NCBI GenBank assembly: GCA_017652345.1
Contig: JAGCBE010000056.1
Location: forward strand, 1 to 21,082
Direction of reading: 5' to 3'
Origin: Methanobrevibacter sp.
GTDB taxonomy: Archaea > Methanobacteriota > Methanobacteria > Methanobacteriales > Methanobacteriaceae
DNA: 21,082 nucleotides
Shown here: positions 1 through 20,847 of the stretch, piece after piece
Numbering within the stretch: position 1 is the first letter of the stretch
Layout of the letters: every line of letters starts with the position of its first letter
Notes under the pieces: generated by a model
Seen by the model: the letters and a program-made list of their open reading frames with translations, nothing else
Told to the model about the DNA's origin: nothing
Database searches by the model: none
Program-made: the position numbers and the translations under genes

Positions 1-3000
1 GCATTTTCATCATCATTAACCATATATCTCAAGCTTCAGAACGATAGATTAAAGAACTGTTTATCTATATATGCCTCAACGTTAGACCATCCTCCAGCTT
101 CAGCTGCTCACGCCATTTCAACCAACCAGTTAACAGGTTTCCGCTGTCTACCAAAGTTTTTACCTAGAGCATTAAAGAATGCTCATACTCAGTAAGTATC
201 TTGATATACGGTTGGGTCCATTTGCGATTGTAATGAACTACTCATCATCTCAGATATTGGTCTTATTGGTCAGAACGATTGAATACCTTGATACCGCTGA
301 GAAACCATATTCATTGTTTCTCTCATATAAGATAGGTAGTCCATAAAGTAATGCCATCAATCTGTCTCTGGGTCTGGCCATCTACCATTGTCTTGGTATC
401 TTTGAAGCTTCCAGGCCCATTTAAGGTCTTGTGCCATAGCTGTAACAAAGTTAACAAACTCTGGACTATTTCATATATATTGTACTAATTCTTCCTTTGC
501 CTCTCTACTTAGTCTAGGATTTATCATTCAAGAACCAAATCTAAACATTTTGTAGATGTTATCTCCAGTTTGTTTAAATATATTTTGTCACCAACTTCAT
601 CTAAAGTTGAACATCTGCATTAATCAGTATAGACAGTTAGCCCATCATCTTCAAGCTACTGGTCTATCTAATCAACCAAATCCTAATCAAAGAATGTTTC
701 TAAAGTTTCTTGAAGAAGAAGCAGCAACCGCATCTATTAATTTAGACTTAAGCTCTGCACTAACCGTAGCGTCATTCATAAAATCAAGAAAGTCTTCGGC
801 AGAGCTAAACTTCATAACGCTATTATCTTTTAATCATTTTATAAACGATATATTCTTAAAGTTTCTAGCGAATATTCAATCTATAAAATTGTTTGCATTG
901 TCTTTATAAGGGTCAAACCATTTAACCGCCTGTTGTATCCATCATGGCTTAGAGTATTTTTTATCAACCTTAGCATACATTGTTATATAATCATCCGCTG
1001 TGCTTATTCATGTGTTCCAATATAAATCTCTCTTTCCAGGTATTCAATATCTATTATAGAATGCGCTCTTATCTAAGCTATCTGGATTAAATGTAAGTAG
1101 GTTTCTAATACTAAGCTCATTATAAGCTCAGTCCAATATTCAAAAACTTTCCCTAATATCATCTATCCTTGCCATATCTTCTATTCATAAAGCCTTCTCA
1201 TATCATATTTGTTTTAAGAAGTAACTTACTCACTGTTGTGGAATAGTCAACAGCTGTCCAGGATAAGACATTAACATTCTGAATGCCATTCGGCTCTGGT
1301 TTGTTGCGTCTAATATTCTATTAAATACCCTAGCAAGTCATCATCAAGATAAAGTAAATCAAGTTAATCACTGCAACACTCTCTTAAATTGTTTATCTTC
1401 AAATTCAGTTCAGAAAATTTGATTAAATGTAGCCCTATCTATTCAACTAACGTCATTAACATAATCTCTATATCCTCAAGCCCAATCTAGAGCTTTCATT
1501 CTGTCTGTCTTCACAACAAATTGTTTAACGTACGAAGCTTGATTTGGATTAGCAAACTTAAAGAACTTTAATACTTGGTTCTGTTCTATTCAAGATAGCA
1601 TTCAGAACAATCATCTAATTCCACCAACTTCTCATGCTCACTCTCTTCATAGGTTCATAAACACTTCACCAATATGATAGAATGCCTTATTTATTTCATT
1701 GCTAGTAGTAACTCATTTTATTCAATCTGCACTACCAAGCTGACGCTCTAAATTCTTGAAGTACCTTGCAGTATCCCAAGCTACACGCTCAGCAGGAGTT
1801 AGATTATCAAGCTTTACTCTACCAAGCTGTTCTAAAGACATATTATAATATCAGCTATATGCCTCTCTAACTAAAGCATATCTTTCCCAAATTCATTTCT
1901 GGAACCGTTTTCAAAATGACCACATTCATCAAAGTCAGATAACATATCATTTTAATCATCTAGCAACCTCCTCTCACATTCAGCTAACACTATCTATCGC
2001 ATCAACCATTTTGTTTGTTAAGCTATACTTTCTAAGGTCAGTTCTAACGTCATGCATAAATGATACCATCATATCTCTTTCTGCGTTTGTTATAACCTGT
2101 CATTCGTTTTGTATTGTCTTAAGAGTTGCCAAATATTGGTTATCTATATTTTTTCTTATCAGCTCTTCTTTTCTCTTTAACTTACGGTCTTTAGTATCAT
2201 CACTACGCAAGAAGCTTTCATTCGCCGTAAGCTCTACATCAACATCATCAGCAGACTTAACAACAATACTTTCATCATCAAATATTGTTTTTTTCCAGTC
2301 ATCTATACTTCTCTTTCATAAGTCTCACAAACTATAAGACGTACCATCATCTAACTTAATTGTAATCATCTGTTGTATTCTGTCTCAATCTGTAGCTCAA
2401 GCAGCATCTAAGTCTTTTACTGCCTGTTCGTACGATTGCTTAATTGTGTCTTCTACCTTCTTCTTTACATCAAACAACGCCTCTCAGTTTTTTAACACTC
2501 ATCAATTAGGTATATCTCTAAGATATGTATAAGGAATAAACATATTTGTATATATGTTTTTCATTTTTTGTTTTGCTATTGCTTTATCAGCTGGTGAAAA
2601 TATATTTAATCTATCTAATTCATCAATTTGTATAGCAATCGCATCATCAACAATCTTATCCAAACCAACTATTTTTCACTCAGAATGAGGCGGTATATAA
2701 TGGTTCTTTTTAAATCATCTTTTAACATCTTCAAATATATCTTTCTTAATATCTATATCTATAGCATTTGACACCTCGTCTAATGTCTTGAAGAATGTGT
2801 CAGACATTAATGCGTTCGTTGACATAACTTTTGGTAATCATGTCATAGCATCAATAGCATAGTTCTCAAAAAATGAGTATTGTGCTAACTGTGGCATTTG
2901 CTTATACATAAGCTGTGTAGCATAATTAGATGTAGCAGACAATGCCTTCGCAGCCTCTAAATATCTAAGTATAGTATATGCCTGTTTATTTGAAAGTTCA

Positions 3001-6000
3001 TCAATTCATTGTTTACCAAGAGCATAAAGTCACGCAACTCATTGTATATTGCTAGGAAGATTATTTATGGTTTCCCGTAACTTTTCCTTAACATCATATA
3101 CAATATATTCTCAATTAACTTCTTTAATCGTCGCTCATCTCTCTATTAATTGGTTTCTTCTATTTTCTACTCTCTTCTTAAGTTCTTCTGGAACTATAGT
3201 TTCATCGTATCATTCAGCTATGGCTGCATTAACATCATTTTCCCTAGCAACATTATTCATTATAGATTTGTATGCTCATTCATGGTGAACTACACTTCAA
3301 TCTTCTAGCTTTTCATCCCATCACAACATTCTATTTCTCCAGTTGTCCAACATATCCTCAACAGCCCTTATATCCTTTTGTCATCATACTCAGATAGGAG
3401 CGGTATATTTAACTCATAATATTCATTGTCTTTCCTGTGGAGTGAAAAATTTTCAATACCTAGGCATTATAATATCTTGCTCAAATGTATCCATAGCATA
3501 ACTAAAGTCTTGTTTTAGTTTCTGTGCATCAAGAAACTTAAAGTCTTTATTACGCAATCATTTTTTCATCGCATCAACATATTTGTCTATCATCTTCTTC
3601 AACACGTCATATTCTTTATTTCACAAGATTATTCATTTTCACGCATCCTCAATCGCAGCTAAAGCAGAATATGTGTCTGGCAAAAATACATTATCATTCT
3701 TTACTACTCTTGATACAGTTCATACTATACTATCATCAGCCAATTTGCCTTCAAATGTTTCAAAATTAAACTTAAACTCTTTTGGCATCATAGTGTCTAT
3801 GATAGCATCTAAGTTACTTGTTGTTGGAGCTATATCATTCTTATAGAAGAATGCCTGACAAAAGTCACTATTCAAATCAACTTTTCCAGCTAAATAGTCA
3901 TAAACAAATTGCCTTGTATTTACTAATGGTAAATCATATCATGCCTTAACTAAGTTTTCTGTAAATTGAATAGATAGTCAATCAAATATATCTCAGTTGA
4001 TTTGTCTAATGAATAGTGCTAAATTCTCATTACTTACTTCCTGCTCTGGAAAGAACATGTCTTTATATATTTTGGCAGCGTCTTCTTTGTTTCTAACCAC
4101 ATTTTTTAATTGTTCCATATCTAATTTAGGAGGCTCAATTCACTTAACCAACGATATAATCTTTCATTCAGCAGCCAATAGCTGTGGCATATCTTGTGCT
4201 ATATTATAATTATACCACGCCTCTCTAATTAAAGCTATATTTTCATTTCAAACTATAGTTCATCACTTAACTAAATTTCATAACGTGTCATTTATTTCTT
4301 TGGCAAGGTCTTCATCTGACATATTTCTAATTCAATTTCTTATATCTTTTATATCAACCATTTCTCTATCATACCTTCAGCTTGTCATCTTTTCTAATGA
4401 AAGTTGTTTGTCTATTCTCATATATAACTCAGCCTTATCTGGGAATTGGTCAAATGTATTTATATCCATTCATAGCATATCAGACAGTTTTGTTTGTATG
4501 CTCTTCATATATTCGTCATCAATTACATCTGTGGAGTATCAAAGCATCTTTCAGAAATAATTAATAGCAGCTTCATTTAGTCAATCATTATAATCAACCA
4601 ACGATTTAGCAGCATTGATTGGCTTTCAATCGTTTGATAAATATTTACAATTAATTATATCATTAAACAAAACTCTCACTTCTTCTCAATAATCCCTAGT
4701 AAGTCAAAGCCACTTATTAAAGTCTTCAAACAGCTTTTTTAATTCCTCCGTTCGGCTCTTCATTTTGCCTGTCCAATATTTTTTTGCCTTATTGTCAAGG
4801 GGCGTACGTCAAATTAATTCACGGAACTGTCTCGTAAAGTCTCAAGTTCTAGACCAATATCCAAATTCATCGGCTAACATTTCTTCAAACACATCTTCTG
4901 CACTAAATTCAATTCACTGTCTAATCTCTCATTTTATTCAGAATAATTCAACTCATCTTTTCAGAAAGTCAGCTTTTCATTCTGGGTTTCGCATTTTAAA
5001 CGCTCCATGAAATATTTCGTGCGGTAATGTTCCTTTTGTTACCATATCGGCTAAATATATAACTCCATTACCATATGCTCATATAGCTTTAACTCACTCT
5101 TCTATATCTGCGTTTTTTATCCAATCAATTGTGAAACCATATTTATTTGCTAAGTCTTCCATTGTTTTTACTCACTCAGCCAACATTGAATGTTTAAATA
5201 ATTCAACCTTTTTTGCGGCATCTGCCGTCGTATCAAGCTGTTTCATATATTCTTCTGTCTGAAGCATTCGGCTGTAATTGTCTACTATCTTAGTATCCTT
5301 TGTGTCAAATATTACGGCACATCTTCCATCTCAGCTTACATAGCGTATTCACACAAATCATTCTCAGCTAAGGAACTTAGAAGCCTCAACATCAGAACCC
5401 AATATATCCTGCAATGATTTATATAGTTGCTCTCAATTTATGTCTCATCAGATATTATCTATAAGACGCAATTTATTTGCTGGTATGTTCTTTTTCTTAA
5501 GAGAAGATATAATACTATTTACCCTATCACTTCACACCTGCTCTCACCGATGTATATAATTAGTTCAATTATCATCAGGAAACTCAACGGTATATATATG
5601 TCTACGAGTATACTCTGCAGTAAATCACTCTGGGTTCATAGCATTGAGTGTGTCCATTTTTTTATTTATAGAAGTTATTTCCCTTCTTATTTTACTGGTC
5701 TTATTTTTTACTGCTTTTAACTCTCATAACCTTTTTGTATAATAATTTTTAGTAGCATTAAATGCATCCTTAGAAGAGCTTCATCTGACAACCCTATTAA
5801 ATACTTCCCTCATCACGTCATTTCATTCCCTATCTCATCGGTTTACATCTCTTATTGGCTTTCAATCATACAACAACGTGTATCATGCTTGATAGTCTGC
5901 ACTAGCGTATTTACCAGCAACTTCACGTGTGTCAGTTAGATATACTCAATATCAATAAGCTGCTCATCACTCTCACTCTCAAGAATGAGCTAAGTCAAAC

Positions 6001-8549
6001 TCATCAAGCTCCCTTTGGCTTCAATGATAACCCATATCAAACTTATATCTATTATCATATGTTGGCAGTTGATTATCTGCAGACTTTATTTGATTTGAAT
6101 AAAACGCAACATACTCTCAATCTCATTTAATTATTCAATCATATCACATATCAATAAGCTCTTGTCTAGCCATGGCTCATCCATTTGTGATTTGTCTGTA
6201 TTTATCAAACACTTTATATGCCGTATCATAGTCTGCAGGGTTTACGATATTAAGGTAAAACTCGCCAACATTGTCTCAATATCATCTTGCTTCATCTATA
6301 TTACTTGAGAAGAATAGTCATTGTATGTCAGCGCTTTTTCTTGATGCTTCTATGTCAAATACATCAAATATAGCGTTTGTACCATGATATACTTTAATTA
6401 AGTTTCAGTTCTCGTCTCTAATTGAGGACTTGGCGAAATATTCTACTTGCTGGTCTGAAAGTGCATTACCTAAATTATCCACCGCCTCATCTCAATATGT
6501 CGCCTGGTATCTAAGTTTATCTTGGTTTCTTCCTGTCCTGCTCTCAACAGCACTGGCCATCATTTCTCTTGTTGGCCTAACCTGTCACATTGATTGGATG
6601 GATATAGTTCAAGATATATCGTCAAATAGTTCTTTATTTGTAGTCTTAAAATATAGACTACCATTCTCTGCTACAAAACTTGAAGATGCTCATCACTTAG
6701 GATATATTATTGTAATCTTTTTATCCTTAATTAATGGAGCAATAGCATCCCTAAGCAACGGATTATCTGCCCGTCTACCATCATTTACTATAAGAAAACC
6801 TCATGTTATTTCACTCTCTATTTTTCCTCTCAGCTCTTCTACAGCCTTTTCACTATATTCCTTTGTTGTAGTTAAATCGGTAAAATCAGTTTCGCTTAAT
6901 CTCATTCTGTTCCTGTCTGCTATCTTATCCATAAGATTAGCTTTAGCTCAACTAAGCTCATCCTTTATATATAATCAATCCCTGTAATTGAAATATCAAA
7001 CCTTAGTTCAATCTGACACGTCCCATCATGTAATAGCCTTAAGACTTATTCAACGAGCGTTCTTTATTTTTTCTCCCTCCTCTCATTTTTTGAATAATGC
7101 CCTCATAATGTTCTTTGCTTCAGTATTGTTTCATAAAAGCTTTTGTGTAGCAATATCAAGAATGCTTCATGATGGAAAGCATTTTAGCTCCATTAAAGCT
7201 ATAATGTTTTTATCTCAAGTTATATCATATATCAACTGAATTGTATCTTCAATACTCACATCATTTCATGCTATTTTTATCGTTGTACCTAATTCACCAT
7301 CAGCTATATCTTCAGCAAGTCATTCTAAGGATTTAAGTATTTTTCATCAGTCTTCCTCAGTAACCTTATAACCCATATCTTTCATGCTTCTGAAGGCTCT
7401 GTTGTTTAACATCACATCAGATAGTGTAGCTCCTTCCTCAGCAAATAATGATGTATTAATTAATGAATTAACCTTAGCTATGTTTGTATCATCAAGTTCT
7501 GTTCATGCAGCCAATTTAGTTAACTTTTCCCTATATACAGCCCTTAAGTTTCAGTCCATACATAGTTGTTCAGTATTTGTAAATGCTCTAGCAAGCAATG
7601 TATCTAAGTCATCACACTTAGCTATCCATTCTTGCGTAATTGGTCAAGTCAAATTCTGTCATTCTTTCTCTAATACCTTTAGCACTTCATCAGCCATTTC
7701 TCATCAAGCTATTATTTCTCTAGCCATGATATAGTTTGTCCATGCTCTTCATGCCTTCTCTGGTTCGTCTCAATATATTTTTTTGATTGCCTTCCATTCA
7801 TCATCTAATTTCACAAATCATGATGGGTTTCATCATTCTTTAATTTTTTTAATTGCCTGTTTGTATCCTTTACTTATAGCCTCATCTATTTCATCCCTCT
7901 CCTTTTGCCAACCTTCTATAGCGCTTTCCTTAGTTCATTTAATTTTATCAAATTCATCTTTAGTTATATTTCACTTTTCTAGTTTCTTTCAAGCGTCCTT
8001 TATTTCCGCTCTTGCATTCTTAATTTTTTTAGATAATGTACTTTTAGTATCCTCAATTACATGATAAGCCCTATAAATAGAATAACCACTAGCAACAAAG
8101 TTTGATATAGTATCTTCCATCTCCTTCATGGCTGCAGATGTATCTAGTGTGTCATCCCAAAGTCTAGCTATATCATCCAACTCAAGGGCTGGTGCGTTTC
8201 TAACCTTTTCCAAAAGTGTAACTCACCCCATAAGACTATCTTTAGTATTATCTATTTGTCTAGCTAATTCCATATAAGCCTCTTGTCATGCATCTCACTT
8301 TAATATACGAGATTGAACGATTGCATCAATTTTTATTTCGGCAGACTTTCACATAAGTTCCAATTCGTTCGTATTTTTTCATGTTGCAATGTCTATTTTT
8401 TCTCACGCTTCTCTCAATCTTGCACTTTGTGTTTGGGCATAATTTTTGACCCTGCTTAACTCAGCAACCTTTTTTGCTAAGTCGTCATCTCAAGCTAATA
8501 TACTTATAGCTACAATATTTGATACTTTATCACAATCTTGTACTGCCAT
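1..8549 (-). CDS. Giant phage polyvalent protein with tandem ADP-ribosyltransferase-like domains and a zinc metalloprotease (C-terminus outside window)
   Basis: Read with TGA as Gly, this frame is open from ATG at 8549 to the left edge: 2849 codons with no TAA or TAG, so it is partial. Residues 1-690 are mostly charged helical sequence I do not recognise. An ADP-ribosyltransferase-like domain spans about 695-825, with SDQQVEYF, YHGTN (721-725), GLFFSSN (744-750), then YDGII (803) and EYVAF (E812, a possible catalytic Glu) followed by NQIKSADN. A second copy starts at YHGSQ (841-845), with GEGEGG and YGYGVYLTD, and ends near GIRYVSGDGR and VIFDT (about 1067-1085). A metalloprotease follows: HEIFH (1177-1181) and a distal EEMLADEF (1222-1229) that could supply the third zinc ligand. 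The remaining 1600 residues are largely helical and unassigned. Families with these domains are known from phage and plasmid polyvalent proteins, thought to be delivered with DNA to modify host targets; that role is inferred here. It begins 9 bp after its upstream neighbour, consistent with one late operon. Confidence 0.85.
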
Positions 8550-8558: not shown

Positions 8559-11462
8559 TTAATCACATAAAACGTTTTTTACATCTTTAACAACCTCGTT
8601 ATATCATCCACCATCTGCCAATTCGTTTATGGTATTTTCAGAAAGTTTACTTCACTTAAGTCATGCCATCTTTTCCTTTAATATTTCTTTAACATTTTCA
8701 GCCTCACTTAAACTAATTCATAAACTATCAAGAGTTAAGTTTTTTGCTTCCAATCAAAAATTATCTAATCATTTTTCCGTTAGAAACCATCTTTCAATGG
8801 TACTTCAATCTTTTGCCTTGCTTTCAACCTTTCTAAATAATTCATCTCTGTTTTTAAATGTGTCTTCATATCATTTTATTTTAGATAAGTCTTGTATATC
8901 TTTATATGTAAATCAGCGCATAACTTTATCGCCAAATCAACCATCAACAGCATCTAGCGCCGCAGAATAAAATCATCAACCCTTAGCCTCAACTCAAGCC
9001 AATGTTCAATGTGTAAGTCTAATAACAGATTTATATGGTCATATTTCTACTATACCAGGAATACTTCAAGTATATTTAATTATATCCGCTGGACTTGTGT
9101 TTTTGTTTACAAGTATATCCCTAACAGCCTTTCATACCATTGAATTAGCTCAGTAATTTTGCTTTACATAATTATACATAAGCTCTTTCGTCCATTGGTT
9201 TGCTGCAACCTTTCCCTCTGCAGATAGTCATTCGTATGCCACCTTTGCCGCATCTGTTACTTGAGCGAACGTTCTAACATAATCTTTTAGCTCTTGTTCG
9301 GTAAATGTAGCCTTTCTTTTTCACATAGCACTAGCAATGGCATTTGCGTTTTCATCACTCTGACTTATAAAGTCAACCAAATCCCAAACTCAAGTTCACT
9401 TAGTTAATGCCTTTCATCATTTAGTTCAATTTCTAAATATTCAATAAAGGTCTTTTGCTTCTGGTAATATATCTCACAATAAACTTCATCAGATAGATAA
9501 CCAAAATGATGTAGTAGAATATGGCTCAGTATCAAATGTAGAAAGCTGCGCATCCATATGCTGTCATATCGCAGTTTGAGTTAATATTCTATCAGCAATA
9601 TTTATTGTTCTTTTCCATCTAGTGTTTATGTTCCCCAGCTCTTCTCATATTCTACCAACTTTTTCCAATCAAGTTAGTGTCTTATCTACAACTTGATAAG
9701 CCTTTCTTGCATCTTCTACGGCCTTCTGCACCTTAACAAGCCTAGAAACTTTAGATAGTTGTCATACCTTTCTAAGCAATAATGGTGCACTACCTCATCA
9801 GCTAGCGGCGATTAACGCAATATCTGGAATAATATTAGCAATTCATTCTGGTGCATACTCTAAAAATTGTAATGCATACTTTTTAATTGTCCTCATATTT
9901 GCACCATCGTCTGTTTCTATAAGTTTTCATACACTAAAGTCACTATCAAGATATGCAGATGTAGCGGCTTGTCACTTACCAGTAAACATATTAAAGAAAT
10001 TAATGGTTCATACAGTTAGCTGTTGTCCCGCTTCTCATAGTGCAAATCATATTGGTTCTTCCACATGTTCAAGCCAGTTCCACACTCTCTTAGCAACGTT
10101 TCATTCCGTAGCCTTCTTATAATTATATACGGCCTCGTTTGTATACTTTCTAATTATGTCTATATCAGATATATCCATCCATCTAGGTCAACTTCTTTCT
10201 AATCAACTAATTTCAAACATTCAATCTGTTAACACATCATTTAAGCTACTTCAATCTTCAAACCTATCTAACGCATCTACTATATTTCAATCCTTAACTC
10301 ATTCGTTAAGTTCACGCATTATATAATTCTTTCTATTAACGGCTCATTGATTAAATAGCTTAACCGCAGTGTTATATGCATCTATAATATCTAACTGAGC
10401 CTGCGTTCTTTGAAGCTCTGGTGTCTCTTTTGCTTCATCTGCATATTTTTTAAGGTATTCTATGGAAGGCAACGCCCTATTTGTAAAGTCTTGTGCTATA
10501 TCATTATAATTTCTTATAGCAGCACCAACTACCTCAGAATTAAGAACGCTCTTAGTCTTTGCCTCAATTGTTCAGTCTCCAAAAATTTTATCTCTAAAGT
10601 TTCATACTATCTCGTTTATTTCCTCGTCTCAATCAGCTTCCTTTGGATTACGATACTTATTTAAATCATCTTTGTATTTTAAAGAAAGATTACTGGATAA
10701 TTGTTCATTATCACTAATAGTGCTAAGATATGTTAATATATCTTCTTTGGTCACATCATAATCTCAGCTTCATATATTATTGTTTTTTAATGTCTCTAAT
10801 TCATCATCAGTAAATTTATCTTTTGTTACGTAGTTGGAACCTAATCAAACAGGAGAAGAGCCCTCTGGCCTTACTGCCACCCTGCTAGATTTAAACTGTC
10901 ATTTAACATCATTTATAAATCTATCTTGTGCAGCTAATTGTTCTTCATACGTATTTGCATCATTTATCTCCTGTATATACATATTTAATCTCTCATTAAA
11001 CGCCCCCTCATCTTTTGGTTTCAGCTCATACGCAGAAGACAAAATTGGATTATATCATAAGAATACATGCTTTTTATCTTTATTATATTCCTCATTCATT
11101 TTTGATTTGGCGTTTTCTCTAGTGAAGAAATTAGACACATCCTGTTTAGCGTTAGAAAACCAGTCTTTCACCTTGTCCTTGAAAGACTTATTCTCGGCCA
11201 TATCGTCTTTATTATCCACGCTATCTGTAGATGTTAAAATATTTCCATTCTGAGAAGAAAACGGAGTTGTCTGGTTTAAATTATTAGCAAAAGAACCAAC
11301 ATTATTTGTTGGCATCCTTTTGATTGTTCATGTATTTACTTGTTGATTTAATGTCTGTGGTGTTTCTACAGTTGACGGTTCGTCGTCATTTATTGTAAAA
11401 AAGTTTTTTACGGATTTAGCAGCACCCTTAATGGCTTTGGTTATATCTCATATAATACCCAT
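8559..11462 (-). CDS. Large hypothetical protein, possible virion or ejection protein (967 aa)
   Basis: The frame is open from ATG at 11462 to TAA at 8561-8559 when TGA is Gly (2904 nt, 967 aa); under the standard code it breaks into many fragments. I do not recognise a family. It begins MGIIGDITKAIKGAAKSVKN, a short amphipathic helix, followed by a Gln/Asn/Ser/Thr-rich low-complexity stretch to about residue 90. The rest is mainly charged helical sequence. Around residues 455-550 there is a more hydrophobic, Gly/Ala-rich patch (for example EPIGFALGEAGQQ and IANIIPDIALIAASGGGAP) that might interact with membranes. It sits between the terminase genes and the giant polyvalent gene, transcribed the same way, so a structural or DNA-ejection role is a guess from context. 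The start is preceded by AATATAA and no Shine-Dalgarno sequence at normal spacing; a GGAGG lies about 27 nt upstream, inside the end of the previous gene. Confidence 0.8.
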
Positions 11463-11485: not shown

Positions 11486-11788
11486 CTATTCCTCCTTGAA
11501 GTAGTCGTCCTCTATCTGCGCTTTAATCTTCTTCTCCTGTTCTTCTAGCTGTTCCTTGTATTGTTCATAAACCTTCTCATCCACTACAGGAGTAATAGCA
11601 ACTCATGCCGCCTTATCTAACAAGGCCTCTGCTTGAGCTTTGGTAAATCTATATTCTTCCCATGAGTATACGAAATATCATTCATCGTCTCTACCGAGTA
11701 GGCACAACAGTTCCCCGTCCTCATCTCTTATCATTACATAATTTTTATCAAGTGTTTTTAACACATCTTGTTTTCTTTCTATCAACAT
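11486..11788 (-). CDS. Small acidic hypothetical protein (100 aa)
   Basis: ATG at 11788 to TAG at 11488-11486, 100 aa, with two in-frame TGA codons read as Gly (both in the middle of the protein), so it would be missed under the standard code. It starts MLIERKQDVLKTLDKNYVMI and continues with acidic, Tyr-containing sequence. The last 30 residues are very rich in Glu, Gln and Lys (for example EQYKEQLEEQEKKIKAQI), predicting a terminal helix or coiled coil. It lies 45 bp after the large terminase and 23 bp before the 967-aa gene, in the same direction, so it is probably co-transcribed with them. No family recognised; a small virion-assembly or terminase-associated protein would fit the position but is not supported by any motif. 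A weak AGAAG lies just before the start. Confidence 0.75.
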
Positions 11789-11833: not shown

Positions 11834-13984
11834 TTAGAACAATCCGTTCTTAAGATTGTCTAAAAATGTGGATGTAGTCTCCTTTGGTTTTTGAAAGCGT
11901 TCAGCCCATAGCTCCTCCACTATCTGCTGGTTGCTCTTCTGGTTAGTAATAGCAGACACATCTTTCGTTGCTAGCTGGTCATGGAACCAAGCAAAGTATA
12001 ACACAAGCAACATTCCTGCTACCTGGTCATCATGTATCTTCTTCTCTCACCTAGCTGAAGCACCCCGCTTCTTGAAGTGGCTAAGTTCCTCCACTAAACC
12101 GCCATCTCAATAACAAGCTGGGTCAATGTAGATAATGTTGGTGTCAAAGAAACTACTCTTAATCATTTCAATACACCAAGCTTTACCAACATTGTGCCTA
12201 GCTCAAGGCTGGTAGGTAACATTACCTGTCCATTTGATAAGCATATCACAAGGCATTCATAATAATCATAGCTCCCTAGCTGCGGCCCCTCATCTACTTG
12301 CATCGATTATCAAGTAGGGTGGTTTCCCGGTGTTTTTATATCCTTGGATAACTTCCTTCATTTTGGCAAACCTTTGGTTGCTCTCTTTAGACAAGTTTTG
12401 TGTTTCCTTTATATAATATTTTCCATCCTTACATCCTAATACACACAAACCTGGGTTGTCAAATGTATCAGCTTCGTCATAACCTAAGGCTCGGTAATCG
12501 CAATCAGTCGGGCATTGTTGTTGTATTCAATCAACATTAAATACCGTTTGGTCTGTTGAATATTCTCCGTAGTATTCAGCCAACATGTAATCGTAACCTC
12601 TGGCATTGAGCACTCTTGTAACTTGTGCATCTTTCTGTTCTTCAGTTAAAAATTGTACATCATCCATAGTGTAATGTAACGCTACCTCTGGACGACGCTG
12701 TATAAACTCTGCCCTCATCTTCTCAAAGTCCCCATTCTTTATCTTTCTTATATAATCATTTCTGCTCTTACATAGATGTAGTCAATACTTAATCCATATG
12801 TCATGGATGAGCACATCTATTGGCTCATAGTTTCTCTGGTTCTTATATGCGTTAAGCCAACCCCTGTAAAAGTTACCCGCCTGTGTGTTTGGCCCAATAG
12901 TTGAAATAAGTGTAACTAAACTATCAGCAGTTGACATAGCAGTACCCACATAATCCCAATCTAAGTAGTCAGCTTCATCTCACACAAATTTTCTCGTTCT
13001 CCTACTACGTGTCGGGTCGTTCTGGTTTGTAGTCACATATTCAAGCTTCCTCTGTTTGTCTCAGTCTAGGATGTATAGCCCAGTACCATCTGACAGCTTA
13101 TTACAGAAGCTTGGCAGGTCTATAAGGTTATTAAGCATCTGTTGCGCATAAACCATATATGGTGCATTCTGTTTCTGGCTAAGTCCCATATATAGCTGTG
13201 TCCATTCCTGCACCCTTTCGTTATTATCTGTTATCTCTTTAAGTAAATATCAAGACATATCTCAGTTGATGTACAAACTTTTTCATCCTCACCTAGGTCA
13301 AATAACATAGGTAACTCATCAACTAAGCAGCCACACCATCAATTGCCAATTCTGTAGGCAAAACCCGTTGAACTGTCTCCCAGTATCCGCAAGCATAGCC
13401 TCAAAAAGCTTTGGCTTATATACACCGAAAAGGTTTGTTTGGTATTTAGTTCCCTGTACTTCGTACTCTATACTAAAGTCTTCTCATATGTCCCACTCAA
13501 TATATTCTGTCTTGTTCAAGTTCTTCTTGTTCTTTCACATAGGTATCCTTAATGGTGTCACCCTAAATATTCATTGAATTATATCTTTCATCATACATAG
13601 AGCAAGAACGTTCCTTGTGCTCTTCAATGCACTATCATCTTCGTCCTCTCTCCTATAGAACACACCATCCTTGCTCAGATGGTATCTGTCCATAAAGCGG
13701 TTAAGGATAAGCTCCATTCTGGTTGACACAGCACCCTTTGTAATATAGGTTAAGAACCTGGTGTCAATGTCTTGCTTAAGTAATTTATCTGTACCTAGAG
13801 GTAGCTGAACAGGTATCTCTAGGTTAGGCGGTCTCTTAACAGTAACCATAACCATAAGCCTCTTATGTTTCTCAAACCATTCCTCAGCCTCCTTAGGGTC
13901 TAGGCAATATTTTAGATTAACCTTCTCCCCATTATAGAATAGCCCACGCTGGTCATCCCAATCTTTATATAGTCGTCAATACAT
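11834..13984 (-). CDS. terL: Terminase large subunit (DNA-packaging ATPase and nuclease)
   Basis: 716 aa from ATG at 13984 to TAA at 11836-11834, TGA as Gly. The product is the motor that cuts concatemeric phage DNA and pumps it into the prohead. The ATPase half shows a Walker A motif, GPRGGGKS (residues 229-236), in which three of the four glycines are TGA codons, and a Walker B segment FVGDEADYLD (acidic pair D336/E337). The C-terminal nuclease half shows GYDEADTF (D503), YLIIDASRG (D561) and HDDQVAGMLLVLYF (D652/D653), matching the spacing of the three acidic metal-binding positions of RNase H-like terminase nucleases. The length is a little above the usual 450-650 aa because of an N-terminal extension of about 200 residues before the P-loop. 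It starts 9 bp after the preceding gene. Assignment rests on motifs and order; the nuclease residues are inferred by pattern. Confidence 0.92.
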
Positions 13985-13993: not shown

Positions 13994-14983
13994 TTATCAG
14001 CTAAAATTTTTTGATGTTGGAACTAGATAATATTCCGTCTCCCATTCGTTTGGTTTCATCTTAATCAGATATGTGTCCCATAGAATGTAAACAGGTATCT
14101 CATCTAATTCTTTCTTTAATCGCTTCTTCCTGTCTTCATGCAGTTGCTCAACCGTATCTACAGTTAGCCAAGGAAGGTTATTCTCAAGACAAGGACGAAG
14201 GATGTTTCCCCCCTGCGTTATTATTATGTCCCCCACAAGGTAGCTAACCCTACCCATATATACCTCAGAACAGATGTACCTATCCCTCAGCATAGCAGAT
14301 GCTACACTGAATAATTGGTTCTGAGATATAGAGGAAGCATTAACTAACTCTAACATCTTTCAGCTTGCAGTCCACATTGGTTTCTTTGTGAAAAACTGCT
14401 TCCATGCCAGCTTGAATGTTTTAACATCTATCTCGTCTATATGTGGCTTGAGATATAGATAAGCTTGGTCCTGTATCCTGCCCAAGTTTGACAGCATTTC
14501 ACTAAAACCCTTTCTCCACGCTATCCTAACTGGTTGCTCAATGTTTTTAAATTCCTTCGTCCTCATAAAGTTGAGCCTACTACACCACCAATAATATTTA
14601 TATTTTCAATCGCTGCCTTTGTCGTCCTCTGCATATTTATCCATGTAGTAGTCATCTATCTTCATATATTCTGGGACATTTCACCACACCTCATCCATTA
14701 CCTCCTTAAACATTTTCTCCGTCTCCTCTTTCTCCTGTCTGTATTTACGTAACTGTTGTTCTATCCTCTTAGCCTTGTTCTTCTCATATAGCTCATGTAG
14801 CTTCCACTTCTTGAACGCTTCCTCTCATAGCTCAGCCTTCTTCTCCGCACATAGCTGCTTCCATGCCTCTTTTTCGTCTACAGGTATCTCAGCTTTTTTC
14901 TCCGCCGCTATCTTGTAGGCCATGTGTGTACGAGAAGGGTTTTGTATTATTTCTCATTTTGCCAGTTCGTTTCGTAACGACAT
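13994..14983 (-). CDS. Hypothetical protein upstream of terL, candidate small terminase subunit (329 aa)
   Basis: ATG at 14983 to TAA at 13996-13994, 329 aa with TGA as Gly; the frame is closed upstream by an in-frame TAG, so 14983 is the first possible ATG. Residues 1-115 are highly charged (repeated AEKKAE, then long Lys/Glu-rich helix), followed by an acidic Tyr-rich patch with YKYYWWC (about 133-139). The second half, from MRTKEFKNIEQPVRIAWRKG on, looks like a folded helical domain. Small terminase subunits usually lie directly before terL and have an N-terminal DNA-binding part and a helical oligomerisation part, so the position is suggestive. I see no diagnostic helix-turn-helix motif, and the protein is longer than most small terminases. 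It could equally be another late protein. It is the first gene of the leftward block, so its promoter should lie within 14984-15250. Confidence 0.75.
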
Positions 14984-15233: not shown

Positions 15234-15242
15234 TGTTATAAT
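15234..15242 (+). promoter_or_regulatory. Extended -10 promoter element
   Basis: TGTTATAAT at 15234-15242 combines a perfect TATAAT (15237-15242) with the upstream TG of an extended -10 promoter. A start near 15249-15250 would place all hairpins of the region in the transcript. No good -35 lies 17 bp upstream, which extended -10 promoters do not need. This is the best candidate promoter for the rightward RNA and replication operon. Confidence 0.5.
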
Positions 15243-15248
15243 TTTTGT

Positions 15249-15490
15249 TAGAAAAAATATAATCAAAAAATACAAGGGGATGAATATTTTGTGATAACCC
15301 AAAGTTATCATAATTAAAAAATGTGTTGCATTTATAATGCATATATTTATAACATTGTTGTGTACAGAATGTACCACGCCATCTAACGATGGTGATGTAC
15401 AGAATAAAAAGCCTAATATCTTTGTGTTGGATTGGCTCCCTAACATAGAGATACAATTCAACAGGAGCCCTTGGATATTGGGCTTTTTAT
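15249..15490 (+). ncRNA. Candidate structured small RNA or regulatory leader
   Basis: Downstream of the extended -10, about 240 nt hold a series of inverted repeats. Hairpin 1 is TGATAAC/GTTATCA (15292-15298 with 15304-15310, loop CCAAA). Hairpin 2 is TGCAT/ATGCA (15327-15331 with 15337-15341). Hairpin 3 is TGTAC/GTACA (15370-15374 with 15397-15401), enclosing CCATC/GATGG with a TAAC tetraloop. The last element is a 15-bp stem closed by 15406-15420 and 15474-15488, then T-rich DNA. A 10-bp direct repeat TGTACAGAAT (15361 and 15396) flanks hairpin 3. No coding frame explains these. It could be a free RNA ending at the last stem or a leader controlling the replication operon that starts at 15526. 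I recognise no known RNA family. Confidence 0.45.
15406..15490 (+). terminator. Terminator-like long stem enclosing two crossing pairings
   Basis: AAAAAGCCTAATATC (15406-15420) pairs with GATATTGGGCTTTTT (15474-15488), 15 bp with one G-U, and the 3' arm ends in a T run as in an intrinsic terminator. Inside it, TGTTGGATT (15425-15433) can pair with AATTCAACA (15455-15463), and GGCTCC (15434-15439) with GGAGCC (15464-15469). These two pairings cross each other, so they either compete or form only a partial pseudoknot. The element lies 36 bp before the first replication gene and could act as an attenuator. Confidence 0.5.
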
Positions 15491-15525
15491 TTAACACATA
15501 ATATTTATTTATTAATTATTTACTT

Positions 15526-16056
15526 ATGGAAAAAGAAATTACTTACGATGATGTTCTTATGTTCATCGTTAAAAACAAGGACAACGAAGAAATGATGGCC
15601 GACCTAAACAGGACCACATTTCCATTTACAGCTAAGTACAAAAGAAAGTACGCTAGCTGAAGCAAACAAGGGGCGGATGATTGAGACAACTTCTTGTTTG
15701 AGGAATTAAGACAGAAACTATCTGAAAAACTAATCTCAACATTTGATTGCGATGCAAAGACAGCAAGAGCTATCGCAAAGAAACGGATTAACAAAGACGA
15801 GTATGAATTTTACAAACAGGCTCATACATTTGATGGTATACCTAGAATGAACCAACAATATGTACTGTGAGACTTTTATGATGACTGTGAGGGTAGAATA
15901 TCAGACATTGAAAGAATGCTATCATGAGACGACGAACGTGTACTTGATGGTATGGCTTGATTATCAAGGCGACTAGATTGATTTGATTTAGAATGCTTTA
16001 GAGCTATGACAACTTCCGAGAATAGGGAAGATATTTTACTTCACTTAGCAAAATAA
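15526..16056 (+). CDS. Hypothetical protein, first gene of the replication operon (176 aa)
   Basis: ATG at 15526 to TAA at 16054-16056, 176 aa with seven in-frame TGA codons read as Gly. The protein is acidic overall and starts MEKEITYDDVLMFIVKNKDN. It contains a Lys/Arg-rich segment (AKYKRKYASGSKQGADDGDN) near residue 40 and ends in helical sequence with DGMAGLSRRLDGFDLECF. I do not recognise a family. It precedes the replisome organiser by only 2 bp, so the two are almost certainly translated from one message; a role in replication or early takeover is inferred from this position only. The start lies in an AT-rich leader (TTATTTACTT before the ATG) without a Shine-Dalgarno sequence, directly after the terminator-like stem. 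Confidence 0.8.
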
Positions 16057-16058
16057 AG

Positions 16059-16868
16059 ATGGAGAGAGATAGTTTCGTTTTTTACAAGAGCTTTATAGAT
16101 GGTATAGATGTAATACCAGACCAGATGGAACAGTTTAAAGCTTATAGGTACATAGTAAGGTACTGAATATATTGAGAGGAGCCAGAAGAAAATAATTCTA
16201 TGGCATACGCTATCTTTGTTATGGCCAAACCACAAATTGATGCTAATAATAAAAGGTTCATTGATGGTCAAAGATGATGAGCACCAAGATGAAACCAGAA
16301 TGCAAAGAAACAGTGGTCTGACCTAACAAATCAATATAAAACAACCAGTGGTTGATTTGAAAACAACCAGTGGTTAAATGAAAAACAACCTAATGTAAAT
16401 GTAAATGTAAATGATAATGTAAATGATAATGTTAATGAAAATGAAAATGAAAGTATTGCGCTCGTTGCTGACGCAACTCGCTGAGACATAGAGAAAAAAG
16501 TTGCCGTAGCGAAAAAAAATAAGTGAGATGTTGATGGTAAGGTGTTAAGTAAACAAGATGCTATAAACAGATTAAGACAAAGAATGATAGATGAATGATA
16601 TAGCGATACAGTTGTTAATCTAATAATGGACTTTGATGAGGTTAAGAAATGAACTAAACTACATAAGCAAACAGATAAATGAATAAAAGCTTTCATTACT
16701 ACACTTAATACACGAGATACAGATGAACAAAAAATAGATGTATTAAATTCAGCAATAGCAGGTCCATATCAATGAATATGGCCAAATAAATATAAAAAGC
16801 AGGTTGCTACCAAACCTAAGAGCGATAACAATGTCGTTCAAGCTGGATGATATTATTTCTATATGTAG
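16059..16868 (+). CDS. DUF6291-like phage replisome organiser / replication initiator (269 aa)
   Basis: ATG at 16059 to TAG at 16866-16868, 269 aa with TGA as Gly. The first 85 residues match the pattern of the DUF6291 domain found at the start of many phage replication proteins: SFVFYKSFIDGI (5-16), YGIYGEEPE (35-43), KPQIDANNKRF (57-67) and GGAPRGNQNAKK (73-84), where both glycines of the first GG are TGA. An Asn/Val/Asp/Glu repeat linker (about 112-131) follows, then a C-terminal helical domain, an arrangement typical of DnaD-type organisers that load the helicase at the origin. The gene is followed after 26 bp by the DnaB-like helicase, in line with that role. The linker-coding DNA carries iterons and an AT-rich tract (separate entry). 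Family assignment is by recalled pattern; helicase loading is inferred. Confidence 0.82.
16338..16450. repeat. Candidate replication origin: three 22-bp-spaced iterons plus AT-rich tract inside the initiator gene
   Basis: AAAACAACCAGTGGTT occurs at 16338-16353 and again at 16360-16375, and its first nine bases recur at 16382-16390, a constant 22-bp period. Each full copy contains the odd palindrome AACCAGTGGTT. Because 22 is not a multiple of three, the word is translated differently each time (KTTSG, ENNQW, KQP), so it is conserved as DNA rather than protein. Immediately right lies an AT-rich tract of near-repeats of GTAAAT/GATAAT/GAAAAT (16391-16450) that could serve as the unwinding element. 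Phage initiator genes often contain their own origin, as with lambda O. Function is inferred. Confidence 0.6.
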
Positions 16869-16894
16869 CTTTACTTCCATTACCATAAAACACA

Positions 16895-17962
16895 ATGAAT
16901 AATTTACAAAATATGTTAACGCTATTACAACAAATGGCGGATGAGGGTAGGGAAGCAAAAGACATACTTCCTATCGCCAAAACCCTAGTACAGGATTTGG
17001 ATACAGAAAAAACAGAAAATAAAAACTTTGTAGTTACTACCAAGGATTACTATGAGGGTTTATGAAAAAGAGCTAAATGAGAATTAAAAGCTAAAATTAT
17101 ACCTACTGGTTTCAGAGACATAGATAGCAGACTATATTGAGTGTTCTCGTGAGAGATTATGACCATAGCTGCTAGAACATGAGTAGGTAAGACGACGCTA
17201 TGAATTGATATGGCATTGAATATGTTAGAAGACCGTAAGGTTTGATTTATAACCCTGGAGATGACAAAGGAAGATATGTTAGATAGAATGATGAGTAGAG
17301 AATGTAATATCTATCTAGGTAGCTTTTATAGTGATAGCTTTAGTGAACGAGATATAGAAAACTTAAAGAACTATTGAGCCAAGGCTAAGGAAAAGATAGA
17401 TAAATTGATGCTTGCCTACGGTTGCTTTAACTTGGATGATATTATCTCAACAATAAGGCAAATGGCAGACGAATGATGTGAAGTAGTATTTATAGATTGG
17501 TTATGAATGATTAATGCTCAATGAAACAAGAGAAATGAACAGATGCACGAGGTTATGGTTTCATTAAAAGACATTGCTATAGAAAAGGATATTGCTATCG
17601 TAGCTATGCAACAGTTGAATAGACAAATAGATTGAATGGCAAGAGACGAACCACGGCTATCAGATATAGCAGATAGTAGTGCTATTGAACATATCTCGTC
17701 TCCAGTATTAATCCTACGAAAACAAAAAGACTGAGATAAAGAAAAGAGCGACGAAACATTCTGTGAAATATTTAAAGCAAGAAGAATAAATGAAGATGCA
17801 AAGGAACAATGCAGAAAAATAGCAGAGGCACAACAGAGAAGGCGACAAGATGTATTTTATAGAATAACATTCACAGACGATTTGTGACATTGCTCATTCA
17901 GAGACTACACACCTAATTTACCATCTAATATAACTACCGAATGATATGAGATGCCCTTCTAA
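16895..17962 (+). CDS. dnaB-like: Replicative DNA helicase, DnaB type, lacking the usual N-terminal domain (355 aa)
   Basis: ATG at 16895 to TAA at 17960-17962, 355 aa. It is the RecA-fold motor that unwinds the phage fork. The core opens with PTGFRDIDSRLYGVFSGEI (70-88), then Walker A AARTGVGKTT (92-101; G96 is TGA), GFITLEM (117-123), Walker B VFIDWLGMI (198-206, D201; G204 is TGA), QQLNRQIDG (239-247) and LSDIADSSAIE (255-265), the order seen in DnaB family proteins. By hand count 15 of its 21 glycines are TGA and six are GGT. Only about 70 residues precede the core, whereas cellular DnaB (about 450 aa) has a roughly 150-residue N-terminal domain, so that domain is missing or strongly reduced. 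Its end overlaps the primase start by 22 nt, implying coupled translation. Confidence 0.93.
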
Positions 17963-18789
17963 ACTATGTCTCCAGAAGATGTTTAGACAGTTCCTACATC
18001 CAAAACAAATGCAAGCTAAAGGACAATTCATTCTGTGTTCCTTTATATACATTTGATTGACAACATTGACGACAAGAACGCTTCATTAATCCAAAAGAAA
18101 ATGATGCTAAGTCTAAAACAGAATATGGTAGCACAGGTCGCTACTTCCTTAATTGACGAGACAAAGATAAAGACATTATCCTCATTGTAGAATGAGAAAT
18201 TGACTTTCTATCAATAATCCCATATGCAGATGACTATAACTTAATTGGTCTTAAAGGGATTAATAACCTGCCACATTGCATTATTGATATAGAGAAGCTA
18301 AATAAAATATATGACATATATATTCTAGTGGATAACGATATGGCAGCAGAGGAATATATTAAGAAGATACCATACACTCCATTACATTTGTACGATGTAA
18401 GAGACGCCCTCTGTTGACACAAAGATGTTAACGACGCTATATGTGCTAACGAATTTAATATGAATGTATTTCCAAAGAGAATACCAAAATTAAAACCCAA
18501 ACCAAAGAAGCGCTTCTCTCGTAATGATACATTAGACACATTAGATAAGATTGACGCTATTCCAGTGATGGATGTATTAGAAGCCCTCTACCCAGAGTAT
18601 AGACGTAGAGGACAAGATAGCATAACAGAAGATTGAAAAGAAACACATTGATATAAATACAGTAGGCGCTTAAATATAGTGAGGGACTTTAGCTGAAAGG
18701 GAAGGCCAGAAGGATGACCGTTCCAAATAGCTAAGAGAAAGTTTGGTGAAGCTAAGTTGGCATTCCTCTATTTCAAAGGTAAAATATAA
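17941..18789 (+). CDS. TOPRIM-domain primase with a C-terminal CHC2-like region lacking zinc ligands (282 aa)
   Basis: ATG at 17941 to TAA at 18787-18789, 282 aa; it is the first ATG after an in-frame stop and overlaps the helicase end by 22 nt. The N-terminus (ALLNYVSRRCLDSSYI) resembles the start of phage DnaG-type cores. The TOPRIM fold is marked by IILIVEGEIDFLSI (79-92; E84, with G85 a TGA), ILVDNDMA (128-135; D131, D133) and KDVNDAI (161-167). It should make the RNA primers used with the neighbouring helicase. Residues 204-270 (IDAIPVMDVLEALYPEY to SGKGRPEGGPFQIAKRKFG) read like the CHC2 zinc-finger region that normally lies at the N-terminus of primases, but here it is C-terminal and has no Cys/His quartet. 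The TOPRIM call is firm; the CHC2 comparison is tentative. Confidence 0.85.
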
Positions 18790-18830
18790 TACAGAGCCCT
18801 TCTAAAAGAGAGCACCAATAATATTTTTAG

Positions 18831-18868
18831 AAAGAGCATTCCTTTACCCAAGGATGCTCTTTTTTTAT
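18831..18868 (+). terminator. Intrinsic terminator of the replication operon
   Basis: AAAGAGCATTCCTT (18831-18844) pairs with AAGGATGCTCTTT (18850-18862) through a single one-base bulge, with a TACCC loop and a run of T directly after. It lies 42 bp after the primase stop and closes the rightward operon. Confidence 0.85.
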
Positions 18869-18933
18869 TGGCCCAAAAATGGTTGACATTTTTAGAAAAT
18901 TATCTCTGGTATGTGGGCCACACTTTTTAGTAA

Positions 18934-18982
18934 TTTTCTAATGAAAGGCAATTTCTCTTTTTGACAGTTTTCTAATGAAAGG
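18934..18982 (+). repeat. Direct repeat TTTTCTAATGAAAGG, two copies 34 bp apart
   Basis: Identical 15-bp copies lie at 18934-18948 and 18968-18982. The second follows TTGACA (18961-18966) at once, so it would sit in a promoter spacer if that hexamer is a -35. A pair of binding sites for a regulator is possible. Confidence 0.6.
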
Positions 18983-19042
18983 TCTAACACCCACCCAAAA
19001 ACCACGTATAAGGGGCTCTGGGGCTGGTATCCCGTCCTTTTT

Positions 19043-19093
19043 TTAGTAGTTTATTTTTGTAGTAGTTTATTTTTGTAGTAGTAGTTTGTTTTT
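19043..19093 (+). repeat. Imperfect tandem repeat of GTAGTAGTTTATTTTT
   Basis: A 16-bp unit is present nearly three times, the last copy with an extra GTA and a T-to-G change. Read on the other strand it gives AAACTACTAC, the same CTAC word that dominates the following gene and its terminator stem. Confidence 0.65.
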
Positions 19094-19173
19094 ATTTGGA
19101 ACTATAGGAACGAACTACAAAAACTATTGTATAGTAGTATTGTTTTTATTCCAAACAAACAACCATATAAAAA

Positions 19174-19218
19174 GTATTGATATATCAAAAAAAATTAGTA
19201 TTGTATCTGTATCCATAT
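19174..19218 (+). promoter_or_regulatory. Operator-like words shared with the 30-bp array
   Basis: GTATTGATA (19174-19182) is the reverse complement of TATCAATAC in one variant of the array; it overlaps the palindrome TTGATATATCAA (19177-19188). ATTGTATC (19200-19207) and TGTATCCATAT (19208-19218) match the other variant on the plus strand. They lie 34-78 bp before the start of the low-complexity gene, a natural place for control by a protein that also binds the array. Confidence 0.4.
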
Positions 19219-19251
19219 TTGGAACTTTTTATATTTTAAACAATTACAACT

Positions 19252-20847
19252 ATGGAACAAACAAACAACAAAAAATTTGTAGTGGAACAACTACAACAGG
19301 AACTACTACAGGAACAACCAAAAAAGAAAAAACAAAAACTAACTAAGGAACAAAAACAGGAACACGAACAAAAACTACAGGAACTAAAAAAACAGTATCC
19401 CAAACTGTGAGATTTTAAACTATACAACGAACAGGAACTACAACTACAGGAACTACAAAAAACAAACGAACAACTAAACGAACAGGAACTACTACAACTA
19501 CTAAACGAAAAAAACAAACAGGAACAGGAACTAATACAACAGTATTTTTGAATAGTCAATATAGGAAAAAACGAACAGGATATACTAAAAAGTATTGAGT
19601 ATGAACGAACAAAAACACAACTGATACAAAAACAAATGGAACAACGAACAACAAACAACGAACAGATAAAAAAACACAACAAATACTACATACTTAGTAA
19701 TATATCCAAAAACATAAAAAACAACAAACTACAACTATTTGATACAAACGAACAAACAACAAACACAGTAGGAACGAATAAAAACTACGATATAAATTTT
19801 ATGGATAAACTAAACACAAACTACATACTACAACATATAAACGAACAGGAACAACAGGAACTACAAACAACTATGGAACTACTAAACGAACAACTAAACG
19901 AACAACAAAAGATACATTCCAATTCATACACAAAAATACAATACTTAATTGATAAAAAGGAACAACAACAACTACAATACAAAAACGAACAAAAGGAACT
20001 ACAGGAACAACTAAACGAACAGGAACTAATACAAAAACTATACAACACAACGAACAGGATATACAACAAACGAAAAAACAGGAACGAAAAAAGGAACGAA
20101 CGAAAAAAGGAACAGGAACAACTACAAAAACAGATACAAACAACAACAACAGATATTACAACCTTACAGGAACAACTACAGGAACTAATGGAACAACACA
20201 ACGAACAGGATATACAAAAACTAAACAAACAACAACAAAAAAGATACGAAAAAACAATACAGGAACTATACGAACAAATACAGGAACAACAGGAACTACT
20301 ACAGGAACTACAGGAACTACTACAAACACGAACTACAAACAACAAAAAACAACTACAGGAACGAACAAAAAAGGAACACGAACTACAAAAAAAGATATAC
20401 AACTACTACATAGGAACAAACGAACAAATACAGGAACTAATAAACAAATACAACGAACAACGAACAAAAAACAGGAACAACTACAACAACAAAAATACAC
20501 AAGTATCAAATAAGATAAAAACAATATCTAAACATTTGATACAAAAATACTACAACATATACAAGGAACGAAAAAACAAGGAACGAACAACAGGAACAGA
20601 TACACAAACGAATAAACAAGGAACATTACAGGAACTACAGGAACTAATAAACAAAAAACAAAAACTACTACACAGACTACAACACGAACAGGAACTACTA
20701 CACGAACTAAAAAACAAATACGAACAACCACTATACAACGAACAGGAACTACAGGAACTACAACAACGAAAAAAGGAACAAATACAGGAACAGGAACTAC
20801 TACTATACAAACTAAGAAAAAAGGAACACAACGAAATAAACAGATAA
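19252..20847 (+). CDS. Low-complexity Gln/Glu/Lys/Asn/Leu-rich coiled-coil-like protein (531 aa)
   Basis: ATG at 19252 to TAA at 20845-20847, 531 aa; two in-frame TGA codons (both before residue 110) are read as Gly, otherwise only the last 403 residues would be called. The protein consists largely of words such as QEL, NEQ, QEQ, KKEQ and TTNN, with very few Ala, Cys, Trp, Pro or Val, predicting long charged helices; no membrane segment or enzyme motif is visible. Codon use is extreme and unlike the rest of the window: Leu almost always CTA, Asn mostly AAC, Thr mostly ACA. Gln and Lys become CAG and AAG before Glu, and Arg becomes AGG before Asn, which together recreate GGAAC. The same words continue outside the gene on both sides. 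It has its own terminator and stands apart from the replication operon. No family recognised; scaffold-like, or shaped by DNA-level constraints. Confidence 0.8.

Follow-up and report, generated by a model that had tools for sequence, protein, structure and literature searches.

The window analysed here is the whole 21,082-nt stretch of DNA in contig JAGCBE010000056.1, and nine genes fill most of it when it is translated with genetic code table 25, in which TGA is read as glycine. We take the window to be a piece of a phage genome, given its genes for a large terminase (TerL), a helicase of the DnaB type, a giant protein with an ART-PolyVal domain and what is probably a Toprim primase. To judge from sequence comparisons with relatives of these proteins, the phage very probably departs from the standard code at three codons, with TGA read as glycine and both CGA and CGG as tryptophan; TAA and TAG are still stops, and CGT, CGC, AGA and AGG still arginine. 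The features of the window are as follows.

3..8549, minus strand: giant polyvalent-type protein of at least 2849 residues, cut by the window edge; 184 TGA, 5 CGA and 6 CGG codons
6060..6416, minus strand: ART-PolyVal domain (PF18760, a Pfam match) in the giant protein, residues 712–830
8559..11462, minus strand: 967-residue protein of unknown function, with no Pfam or PHROG match at E 0.01; 59 TGA
11486..11788, minus strand: 100-residue protein; 2 TGA
11834..13984, minus strand: large terminase TerL, 716 residues, assigned with a structure model; 21 TGA, 2 CGA, 1 CGG
13277..13300, minus strand: TerL P-loop GPRGGGKS, residues 229–236; three of the four glycines are TGA
13994..14983, minus strand: 329-residue protein, upstream of TerL; 6 TGA
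15526..16056, plus strand: 176-residue protein; 6 TGA
16059..16868, plus strand: 269-residue protein with DUF6291 (PF19808, 49.4 bits); 13 TGA
16895..17962, plus strand: DnaB-like replicative helicase, 355 residues; 15 TGA, 3 CGA, 1 CGG
17171..17194, plus strand: helicase P-loop ARTGVGKT; G96 is TGA and G98 is GGT
17941..18789, plus strand: probable Toprim primase, 282 residues, its family match below the Pfam cut-off; 10 TGA
18187–18204, plus strand: primase motif VEGEID; G85 is TGA

With table 11, none of the nine genes is obtained at full length. Their in-frame TGA codons sum to 316, approximately 5% of all codons, compared with 142 GGN and 67 TGG codons in the same genes. Nine frames close inside the window if the low-complexity frame described below is counted as a tenth, seven with TAA and two with TAG, and the largest, that of the giant protein, is open at the left edge. 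An earlier reading made from the sequence only had held that nine long frames require TGA to be a sense codon, with TAA and TAG still ending genes, and the frames obtained with tables 25 and 11 agree with it. When TGA is treated as a sense codon, the longest frames between stops have 2849, 967, 717, 535 (low-complexity), 357, 330, 286 and 280 codons, compared with a longest frame of 255 codons in 200 dinucleotide shuffles of the window; by length alone, the 176- and 100-residue genes lie within the chance expectation of the shuffles. The choice of glycine codon is uneven: TGA accounts for 78% of the glycine codons of the giant protein and 73% of those of the 967-residue protein, and for 38% in TerL and 46% in the 329-residue gene, where the GC content is around 0.40 as against 0.29–0.35 elsewhere. 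No tRNA genes were found in the 21-kb window, and no Rfam family reached its gathering score there.

Two repetitive regions lie towards the right end. Positions 19252–20847 (plus strand) hold a 531-residue low-complexity frame of Glu, Gln, Asn, Thr and Lys, made of short tandem repeats, which is mostly open under table 11 as well and is overlapped by antisense open frames; it has 2 TGA, no TGG and 10 CGA codons. This stretch is perhaps not a gene but repetitive non-coding DNA, such as an origin, and it is counted in the tallies of stops and frame lengths and left out of the counts for assigning TGA, CGA and CGG. Positions 20907–21082 are a 30-bp tandem repeat (5.9 copies, 93% match) that reaches the right end of the window.

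The sequence-only reading had placed TGA at invariant glycines of three motifs. The codons bear this out in TerL, where GPRGGGKS is encoded by TGA CCT AGG TGA GGA TGA AAA AGT, as well as at G96 of the helicase and G85 of the primase; the invariance holds less well, since G232 of TerL is Ser in 16 of 90 relatives. We then translated TGA as every one of the 20 residues in turn and scored two Pfam domains. Glycine gave the best score for both: for DnaB_C of the helicase 141.7 bits (Ala 138.1, Ser 137.9, Trp 127.7, Ile 121.9), and for ART-PolyVal of the giant protein 111.5 bits (Ala 91.2, Trp 70.5, Tyr 61.7), with Trp ranking 16th and 18th of 20, respectively. Among 83 ordinary DnaB relatives, the commonest residue at the 15 TGA columns of the helicase is Gly (278 of 988 cells; Ala 187, Trp 0), and the three best conserved of these columns, 82, 86 and 96, have Gly in 79, 77 and 76 of the 83; others are mostly Ala, Gln, Tyr or gaps.

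Close relatives of three of the proteins were collected as public protein clusters: 37 for the helicase (P0001–P0037, among the best 120 of 168 matches), 90 for the terminase (P0121–P0210) and 28 for the giant protein (P0211–P0238, scored among the 7996 candidates sharing most words with the query). The terminase clusters have 38–96% identity, and in each of them Trp is over-represented in the manner typical of TGA recoding. Trp makes up 4.5% of the helicase relatives and 6.3% of the terminase relatives, compared with 0.5% of ordinary DnaB, and the giant-protein relatives contain 145–273 Trp and 41–96 Gly. This excess implies that the relatives were evidently translated with TGA as Trp by gene callers, and Trp is for that reason the commonest residue at the TGA columns of the three proteins (62%, 55% and 57% of cells). 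The sequence-only reading had proposed counting the residues of homologues at TGA positions, with mainly Trp as the outcome that would tell against it. Here that check misfires, because the relatives' own translations carry Trp for TGA.

The residues with which each codon exchanges are more telling. In the terminase relatives, Gly occupies 520 of 1852 cells at TGA columns, and Phe or Tyr none; at the 13 TGG columns Gly occupies none of 1136 cells, and Phe or Tyr 143. GGN columns carry the relatives' ‘Trp’, which corresponds to TGA, in 1350 of 2978 cells. On this comparison of sequences, TGA interchanges with GGN and not with TGG in the terminase family. The Pfam scans and the exchange pattern agree on TGA as glycine, and TGG is a separate codon for Trp, as had been claimed, with columns that lack Gly and exchange with aromatic residues instead.

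Arg proved to be a frequent substitute at TGG columns, and this observation led us to the window's own Arg codons. The TGG columns in which at least 60% of relatives have Trp number 11 of 13 in TerL, the single one in the helicase and 9 of 29 in the giant protein; the main substitute at these conserved columns is Arg (70 of 117 substitutions in TerL, 8 of 8 in the helicase and 14 of 17 in the giant protein), and the substitutes are never Ser, Cys or Gly. We therefore compared the columns occupied by CGA and CGG (together CGR) with those of the other Arg codons. The comparison covers 17 of 25 CGR codons, from TerL, the helicase and the giant protein, and its evidence is internal to these families. 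The 17 CGR columns have a mean aromatic share of 0.61, with 0.17 for Arg plus Lys and 0.000 for Gly, and resemble the 43 TGG columns (0.65, 0.11 and 0.000); the share of Arg plus Lys is 0.70 in 158 AGR columns and 0.61 in 17 CGY columns. Trp reaches at least 25% in 11 of 17 CGR columns, compared with 3 of the 175 columns that carry another Arg codon (Fisher p = 1.7e-11) and 35 of 43 TGG columns (p = 0.19). Arg plus Lys reach at least 50% in 1 of the 17, as against 128 of the 175, and the pooled column comparison gives a Mann–Whitney p of 4.9e-18. Six of the CGR codons, with the residues of the relatives, are the following.

12491..12493, minus strand: CGA, TerL residue 498; W 63, V 10, Y 6, A 6, R 3, I 2 (n = 90)
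12065..12067, minus strand: CGG, TerL residue 640; six commonest W 40, Y 20, R 16, S 5, F 2, H 1
6771..6773, minus strand: CGG, giant protein residue 593; W 23, Y 3, R 2
5838..5840, minus strand: CGA, giant protein residue 904; W in 14 of 14 aligned
294..296, minus strand: CGG, giant protein residue 2752; W 22, R 2, V 2, I 1
141..143, minus strand: CGG, giant protein residue 2803; W 22, R 5

None of the 17 usable CGR columns contains any Gly, and these are therefore true Trp columns, not mistranslated Gly. In a scan of 62 codons, the standard residue failed to be the most frequent one only for TGA, CGA, CGG, the GGN box, CCC and GTC. The GGN box deviates because the relatives are mistranslated, and CCC (3 columns) and GTC (2 columns) have too few columns to carry meaning. 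The same column comparison leaves CGT, CGC (on 3 columns only), AGA and AGG as Arg and TGG as Trp. The sequence-only reading had assigned the window to table 25; its TGA = glycine stands, and its implication that all other codons are standard does not, so that the label of table 25 is incomplete, since CGA and CGG read as Trp. Public protein sets appear to hold this family in mistranslated form, with TGA as Trp and seemingly CGR as Arg, and this mistranslation, of Gly as Trp and of Trp as Arg, would hide the family there.

Several observations weigh against CGR as Trp. The aromatic share is below 0.5 in 5 of the 17 columns: in the giant protein, residue 2420 aligns with N 12, R 7, W 4, T 2 and S 2, residue 1825 with W 9, E 8, K 4 and R 3, and residue 1001 with a mixture of mostly aliphatic residues; in the helicase, residue 152 aligns with W 14, R 13, T 5, Y 3 and I 2, and residue 275 with R 25 and W 12. 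A further helicase column, residue 254, has F 20 and E 12, with Phe in distant relatives and polar residues in the closest. Residue 1187 of the giant protein (Q 3, K 3, R 1) was excluded, having fewer than 8 aligned relatives. Seven of the 25 CGR codons are in genes without relatives in hand, and 10 further CGA are in the low-complexity frame. The relatives are known as translated proteins, their codons being inferred, and the DnaB_C profile is neutral, at 141.3 bits with CGR as Trp and 141.7 with CGR as Arg.

For TerL, neither Pfam nor PHROG gave a match at E 0.01. Its AlphaFold2 model has a pLDDT of 77.6 and a pTM of 0.60, from an alignment whose other rows carry mistranslated residues. When the model was compared with the PDB, phage large terminases were the best matches (E 1.7e-13), with a TM-score of 0.39 to the first match, which is low over the whole chain, and 0.65–0.70 to a terminase ATPase domain. 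On the predicted fold, the 716-residue protein is a large terminase, as expected of a tailed dsDNA phage (Caudoviricetes). The primase named in the sequence-only reading has the VEGEID motif with its TGA glycine; its family assignment is weak, with a Toprim_2 match of 19.2 bits (Pfam cut-off 22.1) and weak PHROG primase matches. The giant protein matched PF18760 with 92.3 bits in the Pfam search of the window's proteins, and its 28 close relatives are 2282–3705 residues long; the domain and the large relatives are compatible with a polyvalent protein, the other domain match, to DUF3990 at residues 841–885, being weak and below the cut-off. A metallopeptidase-like HEIFH motif is present at residue 1177. 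No capsid, portal or tail genes were recognised by PHROGs or Pfam in the 21 kb, the giant protein lying outside the PHROG search. Since relatives occur on contigs of up to 82 kb, the window is probably a partial genome.

Scans of IMG/VR revealed no close relative of the window. Of 123 matching loci 80 were kept, with helicases of 25–34% identity. An initial estimate of coding density pointed to TGA recoding in some of the kept loci, but the loci were then rejected as ordinary-code phages because TGA makes up at most 2.2% of long-frame codons (in the best 40 of the 80, a figure that includes spurious overlapping frames) compared with approximately 5% in the window. Six IMG/VR pattern matches encode no TerL relative. 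In the GenBank phage collection there was no TerL match and no near DNA match, and all helicases were below 60% identity.

We think it likely that the phage infects Absconditabacteria, parasitic bacteria of which little is known, because its three-codon code is the code predicted for that lineage. The sequence-only reading had proposed a host among SR1 or Gracilibacteria; CGR as Trp narrows this towards Absconditabacteria, on the strength of the code, and the search of CRISPR spacers that it had suggested was negative. A search with a TGA-rich GTPase motif identified two genomes with TGA as a sense codon, at 5.1% and 5.0% of codons, and the class of one of these (353 genomes, including some that look standard-code) served as the set for the host search. 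Cas1 was found in 35 of the 353 genomes. None of 502 distinct spacers, which came only from arrays near cas1 and in part from standard-code genomes, matched the window, a result still compatible with such a host; the best alignment had 6 mismatches in 26, and the reversed-sequence control 6 in 27. The genome searches gave no link to this host: TerL gave one distant match in the 353 genomes, and no member of the helicase family was present in them at E 1e-30, the three genomes that do match the helicase at this level (around 106 bits, without in-frame stops) being taken as ordinary DnaB. Some match to the window DNA at E 1 was present in 324 of 353 genomes, the best in a low-complexity stretch (16376–16451), and a crude array finder run on 12 window-matching loci reported only low-complexity repeats, in two of them. 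The distant TerL match (L089, G349:C199) is a 673-residue terminase whose gene has five TGA codons in frame; a large frame that also contains TGA comes next, and the locus is possibly a prophage or a phage contig in a host-class genome.

We also compared codons in the cas-region contigs of the host class. CGA aligned with Trp or Tyr more than with Arg in three genomes (G039, G016, G028), and with Arg or Lys, or with a mixture, in six (G073, G080, G117, G124, G122, G127). Pooled, TGA corresponds to Gly in 0.53 of 1892 cells, CGG (29 cells) to Arg in 0.31 and Lys in 0.21, and CGA (197 cells) to Arg in 0.31, Lys in 0.15 and Trp in 0.08, the last of which counts against CGR as Trp. The CGR comparison is a hint only, given the small numbers and the possibility that G073 uses the standard code. 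The differing CGA residues of loci L139, L144 and L145 on one side and L137, L140 and L146 on the other could serve to map the CGR reassignment, though again with small numbers.

How firmly the code is established depends on the alternatives. If the window used plain table 25, CGA and CGG would be Arg, their placement in Trp columns would come from TGG-to-CGG mutation at tolerant sites, and the host could be any Absconditabacterium or Gracilibacterium. TGG is indeed one transition from an Arg codon, the DnaB_C profile is indifferent to the meaning of CGR, five columns have a low aromatic share, and some host-class genomes seem to retain CGA as Arg. Nevertheless, CGR would then be expected at Arg columns, where CGY and AGR occur, and it is seldom there; CGA is two changes from TGG and yet behaves in the same way; and conserved TGG columns exchange mainly with Arg and never with Ser, Cys or Gly. 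CGR codons would have to avoid Arg sites and seek out Trp sites by chance, and we regard this explanation as improbable. Table 4, with TGA as Trp and a mollicute-like or similar bacterial host, could appeal to Trp as the commonest residue at TGA columns in 37 helicases, 90 terminases and 28 giant proteins, but the relatives were evidently translated in that way, as their Trp content shows; with Trp so low in both substitution scans and Gly occurring at TGA columns and never at TGG columns, we give it practically no weight. Equally hard to credit is the standard code, under which the frames would be decaying or translated by read-through; the one point we found in its favour is that table 11 has TGA as a stop. 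It is contradicted by the 2849-codon frame, which contains 184 TGA but neither TAA nor TAG, by the TGA-encoded glycines of the P-loops, and by relatives of similar length in many contigs.

A more serious alternative, though still a good deal less likely than an Absconditabacteria host, concerns the host and is not in conflict with the code. The three-codon code would be correct, and the host would be a Gracilibacterium or a member of an unsampled lineage that had reassigned CGR to Trp independently. Some Gracilibacteria are predicted to read CGG as Trp, according to the section of PMC8629427 on these clades, and no spacer or bin ties the phage to Absconditabacteria. However, among the clades of that section both CGA and CGG are Trp only in Absconditabacteria, and the part of PMC13092985 (2026) concerned with Absconditabacterales says the same of them.

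For the three-codon code and an Absconditabacteria host, the most likely mechanism would be that a dsDNA phage genome, of which the window would be a fragment, is translated with the host's own tRNAs: a host tRNA-Gly(UCA) would decode TGA, host tRNAs charged with Trp would decode CGA and CGG, and release would occur at TAA and TAG. On balance we lean towards an old phage family locked into this code, two of whose three reassigned codons are sense codons, and dependent for proper expression on cells like those of Absconditabacteria. As far as our searches show, no other phage group has an Arg-to-Trp reassignment, so that this one, hidden by mistranslation, would be the first; it would also be a counter-case to the view that phages of these bacteria meet no barrier in host translation.

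Such a family would be significant in several ways. A phage that shares the predicted CGA/CGG-to-Trp code would provide largely independent sequence support for the reassignment in Absconditabacteria. It would also offer a handle on the host, since a phage with CGR at essential Trp positions is expected not to succeed where the cell decodes CGR as Arg, even if TGA is Gly there. In practical terms, 37, 90 and 28 public protein clusters (the helicase count being drawn from the best 120 of 168 matches) appear to be mistranslated, and alignments or models built on them have wrong residues at catalytic glycines.

The use of TGA for glycine in phage is already known; the new parts are the reading of CGA and CGG as Trp, the scale of the family, and its mistranslation in public data. 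No paper among the matches listed from the open-licence PMC literature described a phage using CGA or CGG as Trp. For cells, the section of Shulgina and Eddy (2021, PMC8629427) on these bacteria predicts TGA as Gly with CGA and CGG as Trp in Absconditabacteria (SR1), and its authors caution that few columns lie behind predictions for rare codons; the assignment is stated again for Absconditabacterales in the corresponding part of PMC13092985. The code in PMC8629427 is like that proposed here, with TGA as Gly, CGA and CGG as Trp, and CGY and AGR as Arg. It differs in being described there from cellular genomes, the phages reported in that part of the paper being those with AGG as Met in Bacilli. 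The latter resemble the window phage in following a sense-codon change of the host without carrying the tRNA, and differ in codon, amino acid and host phylum. The closest phages are those of Absconditabacteria and Gracilibacteria with code 25 (Liu et al., 2023, PMC10746230), which share the dense in-frame TGA read as Gly and the use of the host's code. That paper, in its main text, treats code 25 and mentions CGG, CGA and Codetta 0 times; its phages, found in IMG/VR and GVD, are described there as tied to their hosts by spacers, unlike the window phage. Phages with codes 4 and 15, as presented in parts of PMC10746230 and PMC9523058, likewise recode a stop codon, but may differ from their host in code, and some of those with code 4 carry code-change machinery, whereas in the window no tRNA was found and the code equals that predicted for the proposed host.

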